Of a DNA stretch of 64,000 nucleotides, positions 3,887 to 12,761 are shown piece by piece. Origin of the DNA: Streptomyces physcomitrii. Its GTDB lineage: Bacteria > Actinomycetota > Actinomycetes > Streptomycetales > Streptomycetaceae. The stretch covers positions 1 through 64,000 of the forward strand of contig NZ_JAAWWP010000017.1 of NCBI RefSeq assembly GCF_012273655.1, in the 5' to 3' direction. A program made the position numbers and the translations under genes. The notes under the pieces were generated by a model. That model searched no databases, had not been told where the DNA came from, and saw only the letters and a program-made list of their open reading frames with translations. Each line of letters starts with the position of its first letter. The first letter of the stretch is position 1.

Positions 3887-5878
3887 ATGCCCACCCAGTC
3901 CCCGCCGCCCCGGCACCGCCCCGACCCCGAGACCTCCGAGTCCGAACAGCTCCTGTTCGGCGGCCCCTTGCGCTACGACCTCGGCTGGAGCAAGCACGAG
4001 GACGCCTTCCTCCAACTCGGCTTACGCGCCATGGTCACCCGCCTGCCGTCCATGCTCGCCACCACCGCGCGGCTGGCCTGGCAGGCCGACCGGAACGCCC
4101 TGCGCCTGGTGACCGCGGCGGAGGTCGGACGCGGGATCGCGCAGGCCGTGGGGCTGGTCGCGGTCAACCGGGTCCTCGCCCACCTCCTGGGCGAGGGCAC
4201 CACCGCCGAGCGCCTGGGCGCCGCGGGGCCCGCGCTCGCCGTCGCCGGCCTGACCGCCGTGGCGGGCGCCGCCCTGCGGGCCCTGTCCACCGCGGGTACG
4301 GGGCAGTTGGAGCCCAAGGTCGAGCGGGTGGCGACCGAGAAGTACCTCGCGCACACCGCCGGCGTCGAGCTGGAGGCGGTCGAGGACGAGGAGTTCCACA
4401 AGCTCCTGGACAGCGCCGCCTTCGGGGCCAGTTCGGCGCGCCGCATGATCAAGTACTGCCAGAACCTCATCAACGCGCTGCTCTCGCTGATCGCCGCCAC
4501 CGGTGTGCTCACCGTCCTGCACCCGGTACTGCTGCCGATCCTGCTCGCCATGACGCTGCCCAGCGCCTGGGCCGCGCTGACCATCGCGCGGCGGCGGTAC
4601 CACTCTTTCCACACCTGGGTGCAGCACTCACGGGCCGGGCAGTTGCTCAGCCGCCTGCTGATCTCCACGGACGCCGCCCCGGAGATCCGGGTGCACCAGG
4701 TCGGCCCCTTCCTGCTGCACCACTTCCGGGCCATGTCGCAGACCCAGGAGACGGAGCAGAAACGCCTGGCCCACCTGGCCGCCCGTACCGGCCTGATCGC
4801 CGCGGCCTTCAGCGGAGTCGCGGCCCTCGCCGCCTACGCCACCCTCGGCGCCCTGCTGTGGACCGGCGCCATGGCGCTCTCGGTGGGCGGCACCGCCGTC
4901 CTCGCCATCCGGACCGGCGCCGCCAGCCTCGACAGCCTCGTCGTCCAGCTCAACCACTGCCACGAGGAGAGCCTGTTCGTGGCCGACCTGTTCCGGCTCT
5001 GCGAGGAGGCCGAGCAGCGGGCCATCCCGCGCGGCGGGTGCTCCCTGCCCGCACGGCCCGCCGCCATCCGCTTCGAGCAGGTCTCCTTCACCTACCGGGG
5101 CAAGGACAACTCCCGCGCGCTGGACGGGGCCAGCCTGACCATCCCCACCGGGAAGGTCGTCGCCCTCGTCGGGGAGAACGGCAGCGGCAAGAGCACCCTC
5201 GTCAAACTGCTCAGCGGGCTCTACCAGCCGGACTCGGGGCGCATCCTGTGGGACGGCACCGACGCCGGGGAGGCCGACCGGCAGGAGCTGGTCTCCCGGA
5301 TCGCCGTCGTCGGACAGGACTTCTACCGCTGGCCGTTCACCGCGTCCGTGAACGTGAGCATCGGCCGGCCCGACACCGCGCCCGACCCGCAGCGGCTCGG
5401 TACGGCGGCCGCCTACGCGGGCGCCGAGGAGCTGGTGAGCGGACTGCCGCGGGGCTGGAACACCCTGCTGGCCCGCGGGTACAAGGACGGTCACCAGCTC
5501 TCCGGCGGGCAGTGGCAGCGCCTGGGTCTGGCCCGCGCCCACTACCGCGCCGGGGACGTGCTCATCGTCGACGAGCCCACCTCCGCCCTCGACGCCCGGG
5601 CCGAGCAGCAGCTCTTCGAGCAGATCCGCGCCCTCGCGGACGCCGGCCAGACCGTCATCCTCATCACCCACCGCCTGGGCTCGGTACGGGCGGCGGACCT
5701 CATCCACGTCCTGGAGGACGGCCGGGTGGTCGAGAGCGGCACCTTCGAGGAGCTGCTCTCCGCCGAGTCCGCCGGTCCGGGCGCCTTCCGCGCGCTGTAC
5801 GAGATCCAGGCCGCGCAGTACGCGGGTGCCGTCAAGGTCCCCGAGCCCGCGACGCCGCCCGTCGACGAGGTGGCCTGA
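3887..5878 (+). CDS. ABC transporter, fused permease and ATPase, probable peptide exporter
   Basis: A 663-residue half-transporter. A hydrophobic, multi-helix region (about 60-345) is followed by a nucleotide-binding domain with Walker A GENGSGKST (429-437), signature LSGGQWQR (538-545), Walker B VLIVDEPTSALD (558-569) and the switch ITHR (593-596). All catalytic motifs are intact. There is no N-terminal C39 peptidase domain, so it does not cleave a leader itself. ATG with GGAG five bases upstream. It resembles the ATPase-permeases of bacteriocin and lantipeptide loci. The next two genes on the same strand encode small precursor-like peptides and the next a membrane protease, so export of those peptides is the likely job. 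A homodimer is expected. The substrate assignment is inferred from position. Confidence 0.85.
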   Translation: MPTQSPPPRHRPDPETSESEQLLFGGPLRYDLGWSKHEDAFLQLGLRAMVTRLPSMLATTARLAWQADRNALRLVTAAEVGRGIAQAVGLVAVNRVLAHLLGEGTTAERLGAAGPALAVAGLTAVAGAALRALSTAGTGQLEPKVERVATEKYLAHTAGVELEAVEDEEFHKLLDSAAFGASSARRMIKYCQNLINALLSLIAATGVLTVLHPVLLPILLAMTLPSAWAALTIARRRYHSFHTWVQHSRAGQLLSRLLISTDAAPEIRVHQVGPFLLHHFRAMSQTQETEQKRLAHLAARTGLIAAAFSGVAALAAYATLGALLWTGAMALSVGGTAVLAIRTGAASLDSLVVQLNHCHEESLFVADLFRLCEEAEQRAIPRGGCSLPARPAAIRFEQVSFTYRGKDNSRALDGASLTIPTGKVVALVGENGSGKSTLVKLLSGLYQPDSGRILWDGTDAGEADRQELVSRIAVVGQDFYRWPFTASVNVSIGRPDTAPDPQRLGTAAAYAGAEELVSGLPRGWNTLLARGYKDGHQLSGGQWQRLGLARAHYRAGDVLIVDEPTSALDARAEQQLFEQIRALADAGQTVILITHRLGSVRAADLIHVLEDGRVVESGTFEELLSAESAGPGAFRALYEIQAAQYAGAVKVPEPATPPVDEVA

Positions 5879-6251
5879 GCGGCGGCGGCTCGGGAGGACG
5901 GGGGCCCTGGGGGCGCCGCGCGAGGAGAACGGAGAATTTCGTGCGGGCATTGCGCGCCGAATTCACCTGCCCGTTCCCGGGGCTCGAATTCGGTTTTCGG
6001 GAATTCTCCGCACCTCAGGGTCACCGTCCGTCCAAGCTCACCCGGGAATTTCGTTGCCAAATTAACTTCCGAAAATTGTCAGATCATCAGACACTTCACG
6101 CCGAGGCAATGCTGACACGTTCATGAAGTCCCCTGACCAGCAACGATGCGCGCAAGAGTGAACGACCGTGACCAGCCCGCATTTACTCGCGTTCACCAGG
6201 CGTCACACCCTCGGGCGGGGCAAGCCGCCCGGGATCCACGAAAGGAAAACA
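5879..6251 (+). promoter_or_regulatory. AT-richer leader region upstream of the precursor peptides
   Basis: This 373-bp gap is clearly poorer in GC than its surroundings, especially 5930-6110. It contains five GAATTC or GAATTTC words starting at 5934, 5959, 5986, 6001 and 6046. GGAGAATT (5931-5938) is the reverse complement of AATTCTCC (6002-6009), so the RNA could fold. It probably contains the promoter of the peptide genes, but I cannot point to a convincing -35/-10 pair. An AAGGA precedes the first peptide's ATG. Confidence 0.45.
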
Positions 6252-6551
6252 ATGAACGCGATCACCTTCGAGGAGCTTGACGGTCTCACCGGCGAGCTGC
6301 TGCCCGAGCGCGCTGTTCTGTCCACCGTTGTTCCGTTCAACAACGCCGGTGGCCACGACGGCGGCGGCTCCAGCTCCAGCGCTGTCGCGCTGGGCGGTGG
6401 CGACAGCGGCAACCACGGCGCCATCTCCTCGTCGGCGTGCCAGGCGCAGCAGGTCCACGGCACCCCCGGTCTGGTGGGCGCCCTCGGCCTGGGCTCCAAC
6501 AACCCGAGCGCCAGCCTGACCTGCGTCCCGACCTCGCTCGCGACGTACTGA
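6252..6551 (+). CDS. Small precursor-like peptide 1 (putative RiPP precursor)
   Basis: A 99-residue peptide with ATG start and AAGGA six bases upstream. Three parts are visible: a charged N-terminal leader-like part with EELDGLTGELLPERAVLS (residues 7-24), a Gly/Ser-rich middle (about 33-62), and a C-terminal part with ACQA, GTPGL, GALGLG and LTCVP. Exactly two Cys are present, 28 positions apart, suitable for a disulphide or thioether loop. The gene at 6773 encodes a peptide with the same layout and strongly similar ends but a different middle. An ABC exporter precedes and an M50 protease follows. I do not recognise a named family. A structural cell-surface peptide is an alternative to a bacteriocin or signal. 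Confidence 0.75.
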   Translation: MNAITFEELDGLTGELLPERAVLSTVVPFNNAGGHDGGGSSSSAVALGGGDSGNHGAISSSACQAQQVHGTPGLVGALGLGSNNPSASLTCVPTSLATY

Positions 6552-6564
6552 CAGTTCCTTTGAA

Positions 6565-6616
6565 ACCGGGGAAGGCACGGCGGCGACGCCGGGCCTTCCC
6601 CGGTCCCTTAGGGACC
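6565..6616 (+). terminator. Strong hairpin pair between the two peptide genes
   Basis: Bases 6565-6576 (ACCGGGGAAGGC) pair perfectly with 6593-6604 in a 12-bp stem with a 16-base loop. A second stem, GGTCCC-TTA-GGGACC (6602-6616), overlaps its right arm, so the two could form alternative structures. It lies 14 bases after the first peptide's stop. It may terminate most transcripts so that peptide 1 is made in excess, or protect the 3' end of its mRNA. Confidence 0.7.
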
Positions 6617-6772
6617 GGGGCCCGCACCTGGCGTCCGGCTCACGGCGGACCGCGGTACGGCGCCCCCGCGGAACCCGGACCGGGTCCCGGCGCACCATGC
6701 CCGATCCGCCGTCACGGGACTTCCCGTGCCTCCGGTCCCGCATCGCGACCCACCGGAAAAAAGGAACACCAC

Positions 6773-7105
6773 ATGACCGCCGTCAGTTACCGGGAACTCG
6801 CGTCCCTCGACGGGGAGTTGCTGCCACCGCGCATGCTGCTCTCGCTCGTCGACGTGACCTTCGGCAACCGCAGTCACGATGTCAGCCAGCCCCAGGACAA
6901 CGGTCAGGGCGGAGGCGCCCCCCAGACCGGAGGCGGCCTCCAGCCCGGTGCGAGCCCCCAGGGCGGAGGCGGCAACACCACCGTCGCCTACGCCTGCCAG
7001 GCGACCACCACCCAGGGCACCCCCGGACTCATCGGCTCGCTCGGACTCGGCCAAGGGCCCAGCAGCAGCATGACCTGTGTGCCCGCCGCCGTCGTGAGCA
7101 ACTGA
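6773..7105 (+). CDS. Small precursor-like peptide 2 (putative RiPP precursor)
   Basis: A 110-residue paralogue of the peptide encoded at 6252. The leader-like part has ELASLDGELLPPRMLLSLV, matching peptide 1 at ELxxLxGELLPxRxxLS. The middle (about 35-70) is Gln/Gly/Pro-rich rather than Ser-rich. The C-terminal part repeats ACQA, GTPGL, GSLGLG and MTCVP with its two Cys 27 positions apart. ATG with AAGGA upstream (AAAAAAGGAACACCAC before the start). Conserved ends and a drifting low-complexity middle are what a leader plus core with a linker would show. The stop at 7103-7105 is about 175 bases before the protease gene. The function is unknown. Confidence 0.75.
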   Translation: MTAVSYRELASLDGELLPPRMLLSLVDVTFGNRSHDVSQPQDNGQGGGAPQTGGGLQPGASPQGGGGNTTVAYACQATTTQGTPGLIGSLGLGQGPSSSMTCVPAAVVSN

Positions 7106-7281
7106 CCGCCCGGCTCCCGGCCCCCGTGGCGTTCTCAGGGCCCGGCACCTGAGCCGCGCCGTCCCGGCCCGTCGGTGACGGCACCCCGGGCGGCGGGCGT
7201 AACCGGCGCGGGGGCCGGATCGTTTGCCCTTTCGAGGCCTTCGCGCCCGATGCCCTCGTCGGCGCCTGTGACAGCCCACCG

Positions 7282-9150
7282 TTGGAGATCGTCATCAATA
7301 CGCGAGTGTCCAGCCCCCCGGACCAGACCGCTCAGCTCACCGCCTGGGCCGTACCGAGGCTCACCGAAGGCACCGAACTGGTGGGCGAGTTCGCGGGATC
7401 CGGATACCGCGTCCCGCCGCACCTCGTACACCGCTACGACGGCCAGGTCATCCACCTGCCCCCGCTGCTCTACCAGGCGACCAAGCTGCTCGCGGAGCTG
7501 GAGTCCGCCGGGGCGCGAAGGCCCCGTGACGGGCAGGCCGCCATGGCGAGGGTGGCGATGCAGCTCAGCCAGGCCACCGGACGGGCCTTCACCGCCGAGC
7601 ACATCGCCTATCTGATCGACAAGAAGCTCGCCCCGCTCGGGATCGCCCGCTACAGCGACGGCTCGCCGCCCGACATCCCCACCGCCACCAGCTTTCTGGC
7701 CCTGCGCTTCCGCAAGGCCGTGCTCTCCGAGCGGGCCACCTGGTTCATCAGCGGACTCTTCGCCTGGCTCTTCCAGCCGCTGGTCCTGATGGCCGTGGTC
7801 GCCACCGTGATGGTCGGCGAGGTCTGGGTCTTCATGAGCCAGAACGTCGGCGGCGCGGTCGCGACCACCATGGCCAAGCCCAACTCGGTGCTGATCGTGG
7901 TCCTCCTGACGCTGGCCTCGGCCGCCTTCCACGAGTGCGGGCACGCCGCGGCCTGCCGGTACAGCAAGGTCAAACCCGGCGTCATGGGCTGCGGCATCTA
8001 CCTGGTGTGGCCCGCCTTCTACACCGATGTCACCAACTCCTACCGGCTCGGCCGGGCGGGACGGCTGCGCTGCGACCTCGGCGGCGTCTACTTCAACGGC
8101 ATCTTCATCTGCGGGCTGATCCTGCTGTATCTGCAGACCGGTTCGCCAGTGATCCTCGCGGCGATCCTCTTCACCAACCTGGAGATGGCCCAGCAGCTGC
8201 TGCCCACGCTGCGCTTCGACGGCTACTACATCGTCTCCGACCTGGTCGGCATCCCGGACCTCTTCAAGTACATCGGGCCGATCCTGCGCCGCGCGGTGCT
8301 GCGCAAGCCCGCGGACGCCCGGCTCGACGCGCTGAAGAAGTGGCCGCAGATCGTGGTGACCGCCTGGGTGCTCACCGTACTGCCCGCCATCGCCGTGCAG
8401 TTGGGCATCGTGGTGACCCGGCTGCCCCAGTGGACCGGGGCGGCGTGGCAGTCCACCAGCGGCCTCGCGGGCGGGGCGCTCAGCGGCGGCAACCCGGTGC
8501 TCGGGGTGCTCTCCGCGCTGGTGCAGATCCTCCTCCTGCTGCTGCCGCTGTTCGGTGTCGTCCTGATCCTCTGGCAGTTGACCAGTGCCCTGGTGCGCTT
8601 CCTCTTCCGGCGCTATGTGGCGCAGGAGAAGCGGGAGCGGATGGGCGCCTGGTTCGGTGCGCGGCGCCGGGTCTGGTTCGTCCTCGGACTCGTCCTGTGC
8701 GCCTGCCTGGTGGGGGTGCTGTCCTGGGCCCTGACCCCGAAGCCGGACCGCTCCCCCTCGGTGGCCACCCGCCCCTGGACGCCGCCCGCCGAGGGCCAGG
8801 CCTCCCCGTCTCCCTCGCCCCGCGATCCGCGCCCCTCGGAGCCCGCCCGGGACCGGGACACCGGCGCCGCACAGGACCGGAACGGTGCGGACACCGCGCC
8901 GCCCACTCCCGGGCCGTCCGCCCCCGCCCAGCAGGGCACGGGCGCGGGAGGCCCCGCCCAGCAGGAGCCGGTGGCGAGCGGTCCGAGCAGCGCCCCGGGC
9001 GGCGGCGCGGGGGACGACAAGCCGGGCGCCAGGCCGAGTTCACCCGGCCCGCGCGAGGAGGAGGGCGAGCGGGAGCCGAAGCCCCGGCCCTCGGAACGCC
9101 GCTGCACCACGATCCTCGACCTGCCGCTCGGCCCCCTGCTCTGCCGGTGA
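7282..9150 (+). CDS. M50-type membrane zinc metalloprotease with possible N-terminal peptide-recognition domain
   Basis: A 622-residue membrane protein. Residues about 30-122 read like a PqqD/RRE winged helix: an RYDGQVIHLP strand, helices, then LIDKKLAPLGIA. About seven membrane helices follow. HECGH (217-221) in the second helix is the zinc-binding HExxH, and RFDGYYIVSDL (about 311-321) is the third-ligand region of M50 site-2-like peptidases of the 'peptide zinc metalloprotease' type. After the last helix comes a tail of about 140 residues rich in Pro, Ser, Arg and Gly that ends with two Cys (RRCTTILDLP..LLCR). The start is uncertain: TTG at 7282 has no clear ribosome site, and a GTG a few codons on is possible. 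The neighbouring precursor-like peptides suggest it cleaves or escorts them, which is inference. Confidence 0.82.
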   Translation: MEIVINTRVSSPPDQTAQLTAWAVPRLTEGTELVGEFAGSGYRVPPHLVHRYDGQVIHLPPLLYQATKLLAELESAGARRPRDGQAAMARVAMQLSQATGRAFTAEHIAYLIDKKLAPLGIARYSDGSPPDIPTATSFLALRFRKAVLSERATWFISGLFAWLFQPLVLMAVVATVMVGEVWVFMSQNVGGAVATTMAKPNSVLIVVLLTLASAAFHECGHAAACRYSKVKPGVMGCGIYLVWPAFYTDVTNSYRLGRAGRLRCDLGGVYFNGIFICGLILLYLQTGSPVILAAILFTNLEMAQQLLPTLRFDGYYIVSDLVGIPDLFKYIGPILRRAVLRKPADARLDALKKWPQIVVTAWVLTVLPAIAVQLGIVVTRLPQWTGAAWQSTSGLAGGALSGGNPVLGVLSALVQILLLLLPLFGVVLILWQLTSALVRFLFRRYVAQEKRERMGAWFGARRRVWFVLGLVLCACLVGVLSWALTPKPDRSPSVATRPWTPPAEGQASPSPSPRDPRPSEPARDRDTGAAQDRNGADTAPPTPGPSAPAQQGTGAGGPAQQEPVASGPSSAPGGGAGDDKPGARPSSPGPREEEGEREPKPRPSERRCTTILDLPLGPLLCR

Positions 9151-9156
9151 GCCCGC

Positions 9157-9176
9157 GCCCCGGCACCCACCGGGGC
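9157..9176. terminator. Hairpin between convergent genes
   Basis: GCCCCGG (9157-9163) pairs with CCGGGGC (9170-9176) around a 6-base loop directly after the protease stop. It is followed by a second dyad built on GTACGGAG and CTCCCGTAC (9177-9197). It separates the plus-strand peptide locus from the convergent phosphatase gene. Confidence 0.55.
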
Positions 9177-9212
9177 GTACGGAGGTGACTCCCGTACCTC
9201 CCCGCACAGGGG

Positions 9213-11714
9213 TCAGGGCCGGGCGTCGCCGCCGGAACCGCGCGGTTCCTCCGGGTCGCCGGCAGCGGACTCGCCCGGCTCGTCCTCCAGCCCTTCGAGG
9301 TCTCCCACGTCGCCCCACAGGCCCTCGGCCGCCGTCTCCCCGGTGCCGCCGAGGGCCTGTTCGGTCCAGATGGTCTTGCCGGCGTCTCCGTAACGGCTGC
9401 CCCAGCGGTTGGTGAGCTGGGCGACCAGGAAGAGCCCGCGGCCGCCCTCGTCGGTGCTGCGTGCCTGGCGCAGCCTCGGCTGGCTCTCGCTGGAGTCGCC
9501 GACCTCGCAGATCAGCACCCGGTCGCGGATGAGCCGCAGGGCGACCGGGCCCGCGGCGTAGCGGACGGCGTTGGTGACCAGTTCGCTGACCACGAGTTCG
9601 GTGCTGAAGGCCAGCGAGTCGAGCCCCCAGTCGGTGAGCCGGCCGACCGCCGCCTCGCGGGCGCTCGCGACCGCCGCGGGTTCCGGCGGGAACTGCCAGG
9701 AGGCGACGTCCCGTCCGGGCACCCGGCGGGTGCGGGCGAGGAGCAGCGTCACATCGTCCTGCCGCCCCGGCGCCGCGCGTACGGGGGCGAGGAGTGCGTC
9801 CGCGATCTCCTGGAGTGGGCGTCCCGGCCGCCCGGCGCGGGCGATCCGTGCGCACAGCTCCTCGCCCGCGGACCGGCCGCCGTGGCCGTCGTCGGTGAAG
9901 CCGTCGCTGTACAGCACCAGCACGCTGCCCTCGGGGAGTTCGACCTCGGTCTGCGCGAAGGGCATGCCGCCGACGCCGAGGGTGGGGCCCGGTTCGACCT
10001 CGACCAGCTGGACCGTGCCGTCCGGCCGCAGCACCGCGGGGGCGGGGTGCCCGGCGCTCGCCATTTGGCAGTGACCGGTGACCGGGTCGTACACCGCGTA
10101 GAGGCAGGAGGCTCCCACCGTGTCGGCGTGCTCGGCCTCCTCGGCGATGCGGACGACCAGGTCGTCGAGGCGGACCAGGAGTTCGCCGGGTGGCAGGTCG
10201 AGGTCGGCGAGGGTCTGCACGGCGGTGCGCACCCGGGCCATGGTGGCGGCGGCGTTCAGCCCGTGCCCGATCACATCGCCGAGCACGAAGGCGGTACGCA
10301 GCGAGGACAGCGGCAGCGCGTCGAACCAGTCGCCGCCGACACTGGCGCCCCCGCCGGCGGGCAGGTACCTGCCGACGGTCTCGGCCGCGGCGGAGCTGGT
10401 GGCGAGCGGCGGCAGCAGGCTCTTCTGCAGGAGTACGGCCATATTGTGCTCGCGGGTGTAGCGGCGGGCGTTGTCCATGCTGAGGGCGGCCCGCGCCACG
10501 ATCTCCAGGAGCAGCTCGGCGTCCTCCTCGTCGTAGACGAAGGGGGTGTGGGTGCGCTGCACCTGGACGTAGCCGAGCAGCCGGCCGCGGGCGAGGAGGA
10601 CCGCGCCCATCGCGGTGTGCAGGTCCTCGGGGGTGATCGAGGCGGCCTCGGGTCCGCCGCCGAGCAGGGCGAGGTGCTCGGCGCGGCTGCGGGTGATCAG
10701 CGCCTCGCCGTTCTCCATGCGGCGGAAGTCCGGCCCGGTGGGCAGCCGCGGCAGTGAGGCGCCGACCCCCCGCTGGTCCGCGGGCCAGCTCCCGGTGGCG
10801 CTCTTGGCGGCGGTGCGCCGGACCCTGATCTCGGTGCCGATGGCGCCGGGCGGCGGCTCGGCGCCCTGGGCCATGTTCTCGACGATCTCCACGCTCGCGA
10901 GGTCCGCGAAGCCCGGCACCAGGAGGTCGACCAGGTCGCGGGCGGTCTGCTCGATGTCGAGGGAGGCGCCGAGATTGCGGGAGGCGCGGTAGACCAGGTC
11001 GAGGCGCTTGCGGGAGCGGTAGCGCTCGGTGACGTCGACGAGGGAGGTGAAGACGCCGGTGGGCCGCCCGTCGAGCCCGTCCAGGCGGACCGCCGTGAGG
11101 GAGACGAAGCGGTCGTTCTCGCCCGGGGTGCGCGCCCGGAGCACACCGGCGGTGTCCACCAGGGGCTCACCGCTGTCGACGACCTGCCGCAGCAGCTCGC
11201 CCGCGGTGCCGGTGCCGTCCAGGCAGGGGGTATCGACGAGCGGGTCGCGGCCGTCCGGGCCGATCCGTCCGGCCCGCAGCGCGGCGGGGCTGGCATGGCG
11301 TACCCGCAGGTCGAGGTCGTGGACGGCGGTCTGCCAGCGGTCCTGGCCGAGCACCGCCCGGCCGAGCGCGGTGGCGGCGCCCCAGCGCTCCATCTCCTCC
11401 TCGGGCACGCCGAGGGCGAGGAGGGCGCCCCGCTCCCCGGAGAGCGGCAGCAGGCGTACCCAGACCTCGGCGGGCCGCCCGCCGCGGCGCCGCAGCCGGA
11501 GCCACCGGCCGCCGGGGACGGGGCCCGGGCGCGCCCCGGGCGGATGCGGCAGGACCAGGGCGCGGGCCGCGGTTCCGGTCAGCTCGGCGCTGCTGCGGCC
11601 GAGCATCCGGGCCGCCGCCTCGGTGCCGTGGGTGAAGCGGCCCCGCGCGTCGAGGACCGCCACCACCGCGCCCTCGAACGGCGCCGGGGGCGGGACGGGC
11701 CGAGGACTGCTCAT
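9213..11714 (-). CDS. PAS-GAF-PP2C (SpoIIE)-HATPase regulator
   Basis: An 833-residue cytoplasmic signalling protein. In order it has a PAS-like region (about 12-105), a second PAS (about 125-235, ending VTERYRSRKRL), a GAF domain (about 245-415), a PP2C/SpoIIE phosphatase (about 445-660) and a C-terminal HATPase of the anti-sigma kinase type (about 690-790). The phosphatase shows GGDWFDALPL, VLGDVIGHGLNAAATMA and LVLYSDGFTDD, with metal-binding Asp residues in place. The HATPase shows ELVTNAVRYA and GGRGLFLV. ATG with GGAG seven bases upstream. Such proteins dephosphorylate anti-anti-sigma factors and can also phosphorylate them. Streptomyces genomes carry dozens, and the partner cannot be inferred. 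It converges with the peptide locus and is probably unrelated to it. Confidence 0.92.
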   Translation of the reverse strand: MSSPRPVPPPAPFEGAVVAVLDARGRFTHGTEAAARMLGRSSAELTGTAARALVLPHPPGARPGPVPGGRWLRLRRRGGRPAEVWVRLLPLSGERGALLALGVPEEEMERWGAATALGRAVLGQDRWQTAVHDLDLRVRHASPAALRAGRIGPDGRDPLVDTPCLDGTGTAGELLRQVVDSGEPLVDTAGVLRARTPGENDRFVSLTAVRLDGLDGRPTGVFTSLVDVTERYRSRKRLDLVYRASRNLGASLDIEQTARDLVDLLVPGFADLASVEIVENMAQGAEPPPGAIGTEIRVRRTAAKSATGSWPADQRGVGASLPRLPTGPDFRRMENGEALITRSRAEHLALLGGGPEAASITPEDLHTAMGAVLLARGRLLGYVQVQRTHTPFVYDEEDAELLLEIVARAALSMDNARRYTREHNMAVLLQKSLLPPLATSSAAAETVGRYLPAGGGASVGGDWFDALPLSSLRTAFVLGDVIGHGLNAAATMARVRTAVQTLADLDLPPGELLVRLDDLVVRIAEEAEHADTVGASCLYAVYDPVTGHCQMASAGHPAPAVLRPDGTVQLVEVEPGPTLGVGGMPFAQTEVELPEGSVLVLYSDGFTDDGHGGRSAGEELCARIARAGRPGRPLQEIADALLAPVRAAPGRQDDVTLLLARTRRVPGRDVASWQFPPEPAAVASAREAAVGRLTDWGLDSLAFSTELVVSELVTNAVRYAAGPVALRLIRDRVLICEVGDSSESQPRLRQARSTDEGGRGLFLVAQLTNRWGSRYGDAGKTIWTEQALGGTGETAAEGLWGDVGDLEGLEDEPGESAAGDPEEPRGSGGDARP

Positions 11715-11795: not shown

Positions 11796-12761
11796 TCAGA
11801 GGGCGTGCAGCGCGGGCAGCAGCTCGCGTTCCGCCCAGTCGAGGAAGGCGGGCTGGCTCTCACCGCCGATCTGGACGAGGGCGACCTCGGTGAACCCGGC
11901 CTCCGCATAGGGGCGCACCGCGCTCACGAAGTCCTCCGTACGGTCGCCGCAGGGGATGGAGGCGGCCACGTCCTCCTCGCGGACGAACTGGGTGGCGCCC
12001 GCGAAGGCCTCGGTGGTGGGCAGTTCGGAGTTGACCTTCCAGCCGCCGCCGAACCAGCGGAACTGCGCGTGGGCGCGCTTGACCGCGGTGTCCCGGTCGG
12101 GGTCGTAGCAGACCGGGATCTGGCCCACCCGTGGTTTGCCCTCGCCGCCGAAGCGGTCGAAGGCGGCGACGAGTTCGGGCTTCGGTTCGGTGGCGATCAG
12201 CAGGTCGGCGAGTTCCCCGGCGAGTTCGCAGGAGGCGTTGCCGGAGACCGCGATGCCGATCGGGGGCGGGTCGGCGGGGCGGTCCCAGAGGGTCGCGGAC
12301 TCCACGTCGAAGTGGGGGCCGTGGTGGTTGAGGGTGCCGCCCTCGAAGAGCTGCCGGATGATCTGCACCGCCTCGGCGAGCTTCTCCTGCCGCTCCACGA
12401 CGCCGGGCCAACCGCCGCCCACCACATGCTCGTTGAGGTTCTCGCCGGAGCCGAGGCCGAGCCGGAAGCGCCCCTCGCTGAGCAGTTGCAGGGTGGCCGC
12501 CTTCTGCGCGACGACGGCCGGGTGGTAGCGGGTGGTCGGGCAGGTCACGTACGTCATCAGCGGGATGCGAGTGGTCGCCTGCGCGGCGGCGCCGAGGACG
12601 CTCCAGGCGTAGGGGGCGTGCCCCTGCTCCGTGAGCCAGGGCGAGTAGTGGTCGGAGGTGACGGAGAAGTCGAAACCGGCCTGCTCGGCGCGGACCAGGT
12701 GCGCGACAAGGTCCCGCGGCCCGGCCTGCTCGGTCATCATCGTGTAGCCGATGTCCACCAT
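11796..12761 (-). CDS. LLM-class F420-dependent oxidoreductase
   Basis: A 321-residue luciferase-like TIM-barrel protein. The start MVDIGYTMMTEQAGPRDLV, the SDHYSPWLTEQGHAPYAW motif and LGLGSGENLNEHVVG identify the F420-dependent glucose-6-phosphate-dehydrogenase-like branch of the LLM family (TIGR03557-like). These enzymes transfer hydride between deazaflavin F420 and a small substrate in the cytosol. The frame opens earlier, but homology and the ATG at 12761 agree. It stands alone, downstream of the phosphatase regulator gene on the same strand. The substrate is unknown; many members of this group are annotated only by cofactor. Confidence 0.88.
   Translation of the reverse strand: MVDIGYTMMTEQAGPRDLVAHLVRAEQAGFDFSVTSDHYSPWLTEQGHAPYAWSVLGAAAQATTRIPLMTYVTCPTTRYHPAVVAQKAATLQLLSEGRFRLGLGSGENLNEHVVGGGWPGVVERQEKLAEAVQIIRQLFEGGTLNHHGPHFDVESATLWDRPADPPPIGIAVSGNASCELAGELADLLIATEPKPELVAAFDRFGGEGKPRVGQIPVCYDPDRDTAVKRAHAQFRWFGGGWKVNSELPTTEAFAGATQFVREEDVAASIPCGDRTEDFVSAVRPYAEAGFTEVALVQIGGESQPAFLDWAERELLPALHAL

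Follow-up and report, generated by a model that had tools for sequence, protein, structure and literature searches.

In the available portions of the sources cited here, the daptides of actinobacteria derive from several short precursors with an EL-type leader, and their protease, MpaP/DapP, is an intramembrane site-2 protease with an N-terminal RRE, the recognition element of ribosomally synthesized and post-translationally modified peptides (RiPPs) (PMC10036551). The epipeptides (EpeX/EpeP, YydF/YydH) start from a small precursor that a membrane protease of the M50 family, EpeP in the case of EpeX, cuts and, as has been proposed, perhaps also exports (PMC10885120, PMC7614699). The pearlin proteases TglG and TmoG are likewise membrane-bound M50 enzymes acting on a ribosomal precursor, from which they release modified C-terminal amino acids (PMC10885120). 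Here we describe a related but distinct arrangement in Streptomyces physcomitrii. The DNA analysed, hereafter the window, is the first 64 kb (64,000 nucleotides) of contig NZ_JAAWWP010000017.1 in a genome of 7.6 Mb, and it encodes two similar small peptides, A and B, beside a predicted RRE-fused M50 site-2 protease. The three genes form a conserved module, and we consider it probable that they make up a two-precursor RiPP-like system run by a single dedicated enzyme.

The resemblance to the described systems is partial. Unlike the daptide loci, the module has no conserved genes for an oxidative decarboxylase, an aminotransferase, a methyltransferase, a DUF-RRE protein or an ATP-binding cassette (ABC) protein; its leader carries an LPxR motif where the daptide leader reads ELExMEAP, and its core is a modelled cysteine hairpin whereas the daptide core ends in Thr (the window peptides end in Tyr and Asn, and the ends of their relatives are mostly not Thr). 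Against the NCBIfam model of the daptide protease (NF041824, cut-off 300) the window protease scores 73.4 bits, one of its relatives, from Actinomadura, 75.9, and two distant ones 96.7 and 98.5; against that of YydH/LiaK (NF058609, cut-off 225) the window protease scores 40.1 bits. Neither an epimerase nor an ABC gene family is conserved beside the module, which differs from the epipeptides further in its two precursors and its modelled disulphide hairpin. Unlike the pearlin proteases, its enzyme would release a whole core, and no tailoring genes are conserved with it. Class IIb bacteriocins are paired small peptides encoded side by side, with GxxxG motifs, a double-glycine leader, a C39 exporter and an immunity gene. 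The module shares with them two different adjacent peptides and a GxxxG-like Gly/Leu stretch but not the exporter, a conserved immunity gene or the leader type (there is no conserved GG site after the leader motif), and its nearly uncharged core is a predicted β-hairpin and not a helix.

The open-licence literature, including the available portions of PMC10885120, PMC10036551, PMC7470986, PMC7794033 and PMC7614699, yielded no description of the A/B family or of the module, which the supplementary tables of RRE surveys could list unnamed, and two plasmid-borne copies are annotated as hypothetical proteins. The system thus appears to be uncharacterised so far. Processing by an RRE-bearing site-2 protease is known; what appears to be new is a set of RRE-guided, site-2-protease-processed peptides that have paired cysteine-hairpin cores and neither a conserved tailoring enzyme nor a conserved transporter.

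The peptide and protease module and its distribution

Peptide A (LPER type; 6252..6551, 99 residues), peptide B (LPPR type; 6773..7105, 110 residues) and the protease (7306..9150, 614 residues from GTG 7306) all lie on the plus strand. The protease frame opens at TTG 7282, and GTG 7306 is the likelier, though uncertain, start. Peptides A and B align with 48% identity and 47 invariant columns, mostly near both ends, and a query with A retrieves B in its own genome at E 2.8e-11. This value and the recurrence of the pair beside the protease in other genera show that their likeness is no accident.

Relatives of the protease were sought in a collection holding one genome per species. A search with the single sequence found none, and when repeated from an alignment it gave at least 219 stretches with protease relatives in named genomes; the best 80 of the 219 and the window form the set of 81 loci used below. 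In a six-frame profile scan, peptide genes lie beside the protease in 79 of the 81 loci, and the remaining two begin at a contig end, so that their upstream DNA is missing. Gene calling alone placed a family member beside the protease in 76 of the 80 related loci and missed a clear A/B pair (L143) that the profile scan recovered. When peptides were typed by a simple rule on the residues preceding the first core cysteine, at least one A together with at least one B was present in 72 of the 81 loci; one locus (L126) has as many as five A copies. A second set comprised 16 whole genomes with the module, our own included, and overlaps in species with the first; the protease adjoins the peptides in all 16. 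One peptide hit (G079) had been dropped from consideration, as it contains two stops and its locus (L028) holds no module.

The hosts belong to at least six named genera (Streptomyces, Actinacidiphila, Actinomadura, Amycolatopsis, Saccharopolyspora and Actinomycetospora), and metagenome-assembled genomes add to these. Within Streptomyces, A/B peptides are present in 14 of 392 genomes. A peptide profile built from Streptomyces (A2) found no other genus among the 137 represented in 394 genomes of the class, a null that we ascribe to the limits of profile and sample, as broader searches did find other genera. When neighbouring genes of the 81 loci were clustered by family (they were not scanned individually against Pfam), no third family was common beside the module across genera, and the families common within Actinomadura loci look like ordinary synteny. 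The module is made up of peptide A, peptide B and the protease. A preliminary description of this DNA had proposed twin precursors of leader-linker-core layout with a membrane metalloprotease partner and no adjacent tailoring enzyme, and had suggested looking for their co-occurrence across actinobacteria with variable peptide middles. These elements held up: the same A/B pair recurs beside the protease in other genera, the middles vary, and no tailoring enzyme is conserved beside the module across them.

Anatomy of the precursors and the protease

Across 156 called peptides, a conserved leader with the motif EL-x(2-5)-GE-x-LP-x-R-x-x-L-S is followed by a variable linker and a conserved core. 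The leader of peptide A spans approximately residues 1-26 and precedes a Gly/Ser-rich linker; peptide B has an unrelated linker and the leader motif in common. The stretch between the motif and the first core cysteine, noticed in the preliminary description as a low-complexity middle, is Gly-rich and ranges from 14 to 57 residues over the family. Exactly two core cysteines are found in 155 of the 156 peptides (Cys63 and Cys91 in A, Cys75 and Cys102 in B), including three peptides outside the leader pattern that were read by eye. Their spacing is 26-27 residues in 115 of 152 peptides measured (range 12-29), and 8-9 residues follow the second cysteine in 131 of the 152. Two A peptides without the GTPGL..LGLG tip (L023, L062) keep both cysteines. 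The cores are rich in Thr and Ser and nearly uncharged, with 4.3% charged residues over 155 cores. None of the 156 peptides has a hydrophobic 19-residue stretch, such as all five control chaplins have near the N-terminus, and there is therefore no apparent Sec signal. Pfam gave no family match for A or B, the sole NCBIfam row was a 9.9-bit match to A that we take as chance, and none of the peptides tested exceeded the cut-off of an NCBIfam or Pfam family. As judged from sequence, the genes encode ribosomal precursors with a leader and a core, as RiPP genes do, and leader cleavage is predicted.

The AlphaFold2 model of peptide B, computed from an alignment of 46 peptide sequences, consists of a low-confidence N-terminal part and a C-terminal β-hairpin (6974..7099, plus strand; strands 68-80 and 97-109), with block values of the predicted local distance difference test (pLDDT) of 84-90 over residues 71-110 and 61 over residues 61-70. 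The strand ranges put Cys75 opposite Cys102, and the tip of the modelled hairpin is Gly/Leu-rich. It is thus probable that the conserved pair forms a disulphide, and the cysteine loop suggested in the preliminary description gains support from both conservation and model.

Directly 3' of the A gene lies a strong stem-loop (6565..6604, plus strand), a putative terminator or attenuator; the 96 nucleotides around it fold at -56 kcal/mol (z -3.8). Folding was computed for every plus-strand A or B gene followed by 91 nucleotides in the 81 loci, with 60 shuffles each, and z ≤ -2.5 was reached after 83 of 93 A genes and after 5 of 72 B genes. The stem-loop is enriched after A in every gene order, whether the next gene is B (47/49), another A (14/16) or the protease (22/28), and therefore belongs to A; after B it was found in 2 of 50 cases when the protease comes next and in 3 of 22 when A does. 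Hand-picked loci in which A comes first agree (13 of 13 with z ≤ -2.6). We interpret the stem-loop as probably a terminator or attenuator, through which A would be produced in excess over B and the protease.

The protease carries an HExxH zinc-binding motif, H209-E-C-G-H213 (7930..7944), in which H, E and H are invariant in the family alignment, and a second catalytic motif, Asp305-Gly306 (8218..8223), within LLPTLRFDGYY, with D and G invariant; from what is known of site-2 proteases we take this Asp to be the third zinc ligand. Its AlphaFold2 model, for which the alignment used 54 of 76 listed sequences, shows three strands followed by three helices over residues 22-117 (7369..7656), with block pLDDT of 89-98 over residues 11-120, and after residue 117 a membrane domain of several helices and then a disordered tail. 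Among the Foldseek candidates realigned with VIA-align 2, the top scores over residues 133-418 belong to SpoIVFB (Z 8.1 and 7.8), and the site-2 protease of M. jannaschii (mjS2P) aligns within the same range (Z 7.6). At the N-terminus, residues 2-72 of CteB (5wgg_A) align with protease residues 21-124 (Z 6.1, 70 residues, 2.9 Å), and ThcOx (5lq4_B) aligns with residues 11-121 (Z 5.2). The matched N-terminal parts of CteB and ThcOx are presumably their RRE domains. The models thus predict a winged-helix, RRE-like domain fused N-terminally to a site-2 protease, the domain order of the daptide enzyme. A sequence search of the PDB with the protease profile returned one match (E 0.044), taken as chance. 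A role of the locus in defence was considered and rejected, PADLOC having given only ATPase-type matches, to the ABC gene, and a weak 18-bit match to the protease tail.

Proposed processing route, competing readings and neighbouring genes

According to our hypothesis, precursors A and B are made with A outnumbering B and the protease, an effect that the stem-loop would bring about. Their common leader would then dock on the cytoplasmic N-terminal RRE domain of the protease, as the predicted fold suggests. By analogy with the proposal for EpeP, the site-2 protease would detach the leader by cleavage ahead of the core and may also be what carries the core through the membrane; the module has no exporter gene as a conserved neighbour. 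Outside the cell the conserved cysteines would oxidise, stapling cores of approximately 43 residues as β-hairpins. These four steps, taken jointly, constitute the reading that we regard as probable. As a fifth step, and as a guess, A and B would function jointly at the envelope or surface of the cell.

Several observations weigh against this hypothesis, which should accordingly be read with some caution. Its cleavage, oxidation and activity are what we infer, and its RRE domain and hairpin are predictions. Foldseek found no significant match in the PDB for the model of the protease or for that of peptide B. The VIA-align scores are modest (Z 6-8): unrelated membrane proteins reach 5.8 elsewhere in the chain, and the carbamoyltransferase GdmN, which is not a RiPP enzyme, aligns with residues 13-118 (Z 5.4). 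The stem-loop lacks a T-run, and scanning 5800-9300 for promoter and terminator consensus returned nothing, the stem-loop being missed as well. Seven peptide-bearing loci lack the A/B pairing and instead read AA, AAA, AAAA or a single A, and one genome holds a solo A copy without a protease (L020). Both cysteines are missing from one A peptide (L145), and the most distant of the 80 loci (L151) encodes cores free of cysteine; not all members can therefore depend on the disulphide. Lastly, among 20 distant protease loci described below, three (L191, L192, L195) have no leader peptide and a fourth (L193) has a weak one.

As to function, our guess is that a structural or developmental surface role is slightly likelier than the killing of competitors. 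The near absence of charge, the lack of a conserved immunity gene and the stable Actinomadura synteny lean towards the former; the two partners, the Gly/Leu-rich tip and the membrane-active cousins lean towards the latter. In the antagonistic case A and B, processed by the same protease, would be a secreted two-component membrane-active bacteriocin whose uncharged amphipathic hairpins insert together into target membranes, in the manner of a two-peptide bacteriocin or a miniature β-pore former. We treat this as a real possibility, if on balance a doubtful one. The frequent presence of two different peptides in a locus and the multiplication of A are in its favor, as are the low charge and the tip of the hairpin, and the top Foldseek rows for the hairpin are mostly stem hairpins of pore-forming toxins, although non-significant (E 3.6-10, probability ≤0.12). 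In the available portions of the reports, moreover, daptides are called synergistic hemolysins (PMC10036551) and EpeX is called toxic to the cell envelope (PMC7614699). Against antagonism, no immunity gene family is conserved beside the module, and the cores are not cationic. Bacteriocin loci are typically patchy, unlike the module in Actinomadura, which sits in a neighbourhood common to many species.

A true modified RiPP, with tailoring enzymes encoded elsewhere in the genome, is unlikely in our view. It would agree with the Thr/Ser-rich cores and their two cysteines and with the RiPP clusters in which the published RRE-protease fusions lie, as far as the sources available to us describe them (daptides, PMC10036551; lasso peptides). 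Across genera the module has no tailoring family as a conserved neighbour, unlinked enzymes not having been searched for, and the cysteine pair and symmetric hairpin already account for the conservation.

Site-2 proteases are best known for signalling, and the SpoIVFB to which the protease aligns is that of the SpoIVFB:pro-sigma-K complex. The peptides could on these grounds be regulators or tethers cut in regulated intramembrane proteolysis and not secreted. We judge this more improbable still, as no third gene family accompanies the module across genera, the peptides have no membrane segment, and the model of the core is a hairpin of the disulphide type.

The weakest alternative is the version first put forward, in which the peptides are exported by the product of the ABC transporter gene at 3887-5878. 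That gene adjoins the peptides on the same strand in the window and has a clear ABC_tran match with an exporter-type ATPase region; its Pfam list contains no peptidase family, as had been noted. An ATPase similar to it (E ≤ 1e-5) occurs anywhere in 8 of the 81 loci, and only in the window does it adjoin the module on the same strand; among the 16 whole genomes, the window's is again the only one with this neighbour. Close relatives (E ≤ 1e-120) are found in 128 of 199 Streptomyces genomes, far more widely than the peptides, and the 19 inspected with approximately 1.5 kb of flank (L209-L227) lie beside other genes. Within the window an AT-richer gap of 373 nucleotides separates the gene from peptide A. 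The preliminary description had stated that consistent pairing of the exporter with another system would speak against it, and this is the outcome for the exporter part alone: distribution rules the gene out as a component, and the ABC-export version is largely refuted and most improbable. Many of the 19 relatives adjoin a conserved open reading frame (ORF) of approximately 60 residues (MNGRTVLERFPAGGPRGSWPAEE...) and an ATP-binding, regulator-like gene.

Other genes recur near the module. Chaplin genes flank it, on one side or on both, in one Streptomyces clade (L064, L076, L077, L091) and in L083. Chaplins (ChpA-C, PF03777) resemble the A/B peptides as small actinomycete peptides with a Cys-Cys loop. 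Homology between the two, which the NPxxxxTC pattern and the nearby chaplin genes had brought to mind, was rejected: A and B have no PF03777 match and no hydrophobic signal segment, and the hhalign profile probability is 0.2%. In L064 and L091 a 210-residue ORF lies upstream of peptide A and is presumably similar to disulphide enzymes of the VKOR type. A gene that we take to be aconitase-like is found beside or near the module in 14 loci of the family clustering. At a distance of a few kb from the module there is an oxidoreductase-family gene in the window (11796-12758; presumably an F420-type LLM oxidoreductase), in 29 Actinomadura loci (e.g. L096 4463-5431) and in one distant genome (L195 4096-5061). 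Many of the Streptomyces hosts are, we assume, former Streptoverticillium species, a clade in which the module may have become fixed. One genome (G129; loci L021, L022, L023 and L020) has two inverted copies of the module, one close to each end of the chromosome, and elsewhere a one-peptide version and a solo A gene without a protease. Farther along the window, at 32264-64000, very long minus-strand ORFs run off its end and by eye resemble a modular type I polyketide synthase.

Relatives of the protease and of the leader

Relatives of the protease (E ≤ 1e-15) are present in 23 of 296 Actinomycetota genomes and 18 of 198 genera, our own included. Outside our own genome there were 26 distant matches, of which 20 were inspected (L179 being the same locus as L151). 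Read by eye, 16 of these 20 loci have one or more ORFs beside or near the protease with a clear leader motif, E-x-LP-[DE]-[RK]-x-x-[ML]-S-L and variants, and other cores. Two kinds are commonest, each present in seven loci: 'NVLSD' peptides, in multiple copies, and proteins of approximately 210-290 residues with LPDKEVxSLLDLN. In a single comparison the A/B profile matches the NVLSD profile with a probability of 95% (E 2.3e-8), over leader residues 3-30 only. An A/B profile search of 345 genomes of the class gave eight at E ≤ 0.001, and the six of these outside Streptomyces all have NVLSD peptides; in five of them the protease gene can be seen to begin within the stretch examined. Since the distant protease loci share only the leader, the leader goes with the protease while the core varies.

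The NVLSD peptides are seemingly another undescribed family. They are often multi-copy in the seven distant loci and the six profile-search genomes (among L179-L198 and L229-L234), and some of their loci contain, close by, a small ORF without the leader or a gene for a CTDC-containing secreted protein (for example L234 1814-2590 and L151 8632-9324). In one locus a leader peptide beside an RRE-M50 gene (L198:7342-7599) has a weakly chaplin-like core, with 15.5 bits to PF03777 (cut-off 21) and E 1.8e-4 to a local chaplin profile.

These relatives suggest a broader hypothesis, which we advance tentatively and think somewhat less likely to hold than to fail. The RRE-fused site-2 protease would be a stand-alone receptor, protease and translocase of an Actinomycetota-wide peptide superfamily, in which one leader is combined with interchangeable cores (Cys-stapled hairpin pairs, NVLSD peptides, SLLDLN-type proteins and others) and cores are delivered to the surface without an ABC transporter, a Sec signal or tailoring.

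In conclusion, if the two-precursor hypothesis is true, the module is a minimal RRE-guided processing unit on which binding and cleavage could readily be assayed. With it one could also test whether cleavage and export of a peptide can be the work of a single M50 protease, which in the available portions of the reports is still a prediction for the epipeptide EpeX (PMC10885120, PMC7614699). A shared leader with swappable cores could serve the delivery of designed peptides. If the protease is in addition a stand-alone machine of the kind tentatively proposed above, this would be a new way for ribosomal peptides to be matured and secreted.

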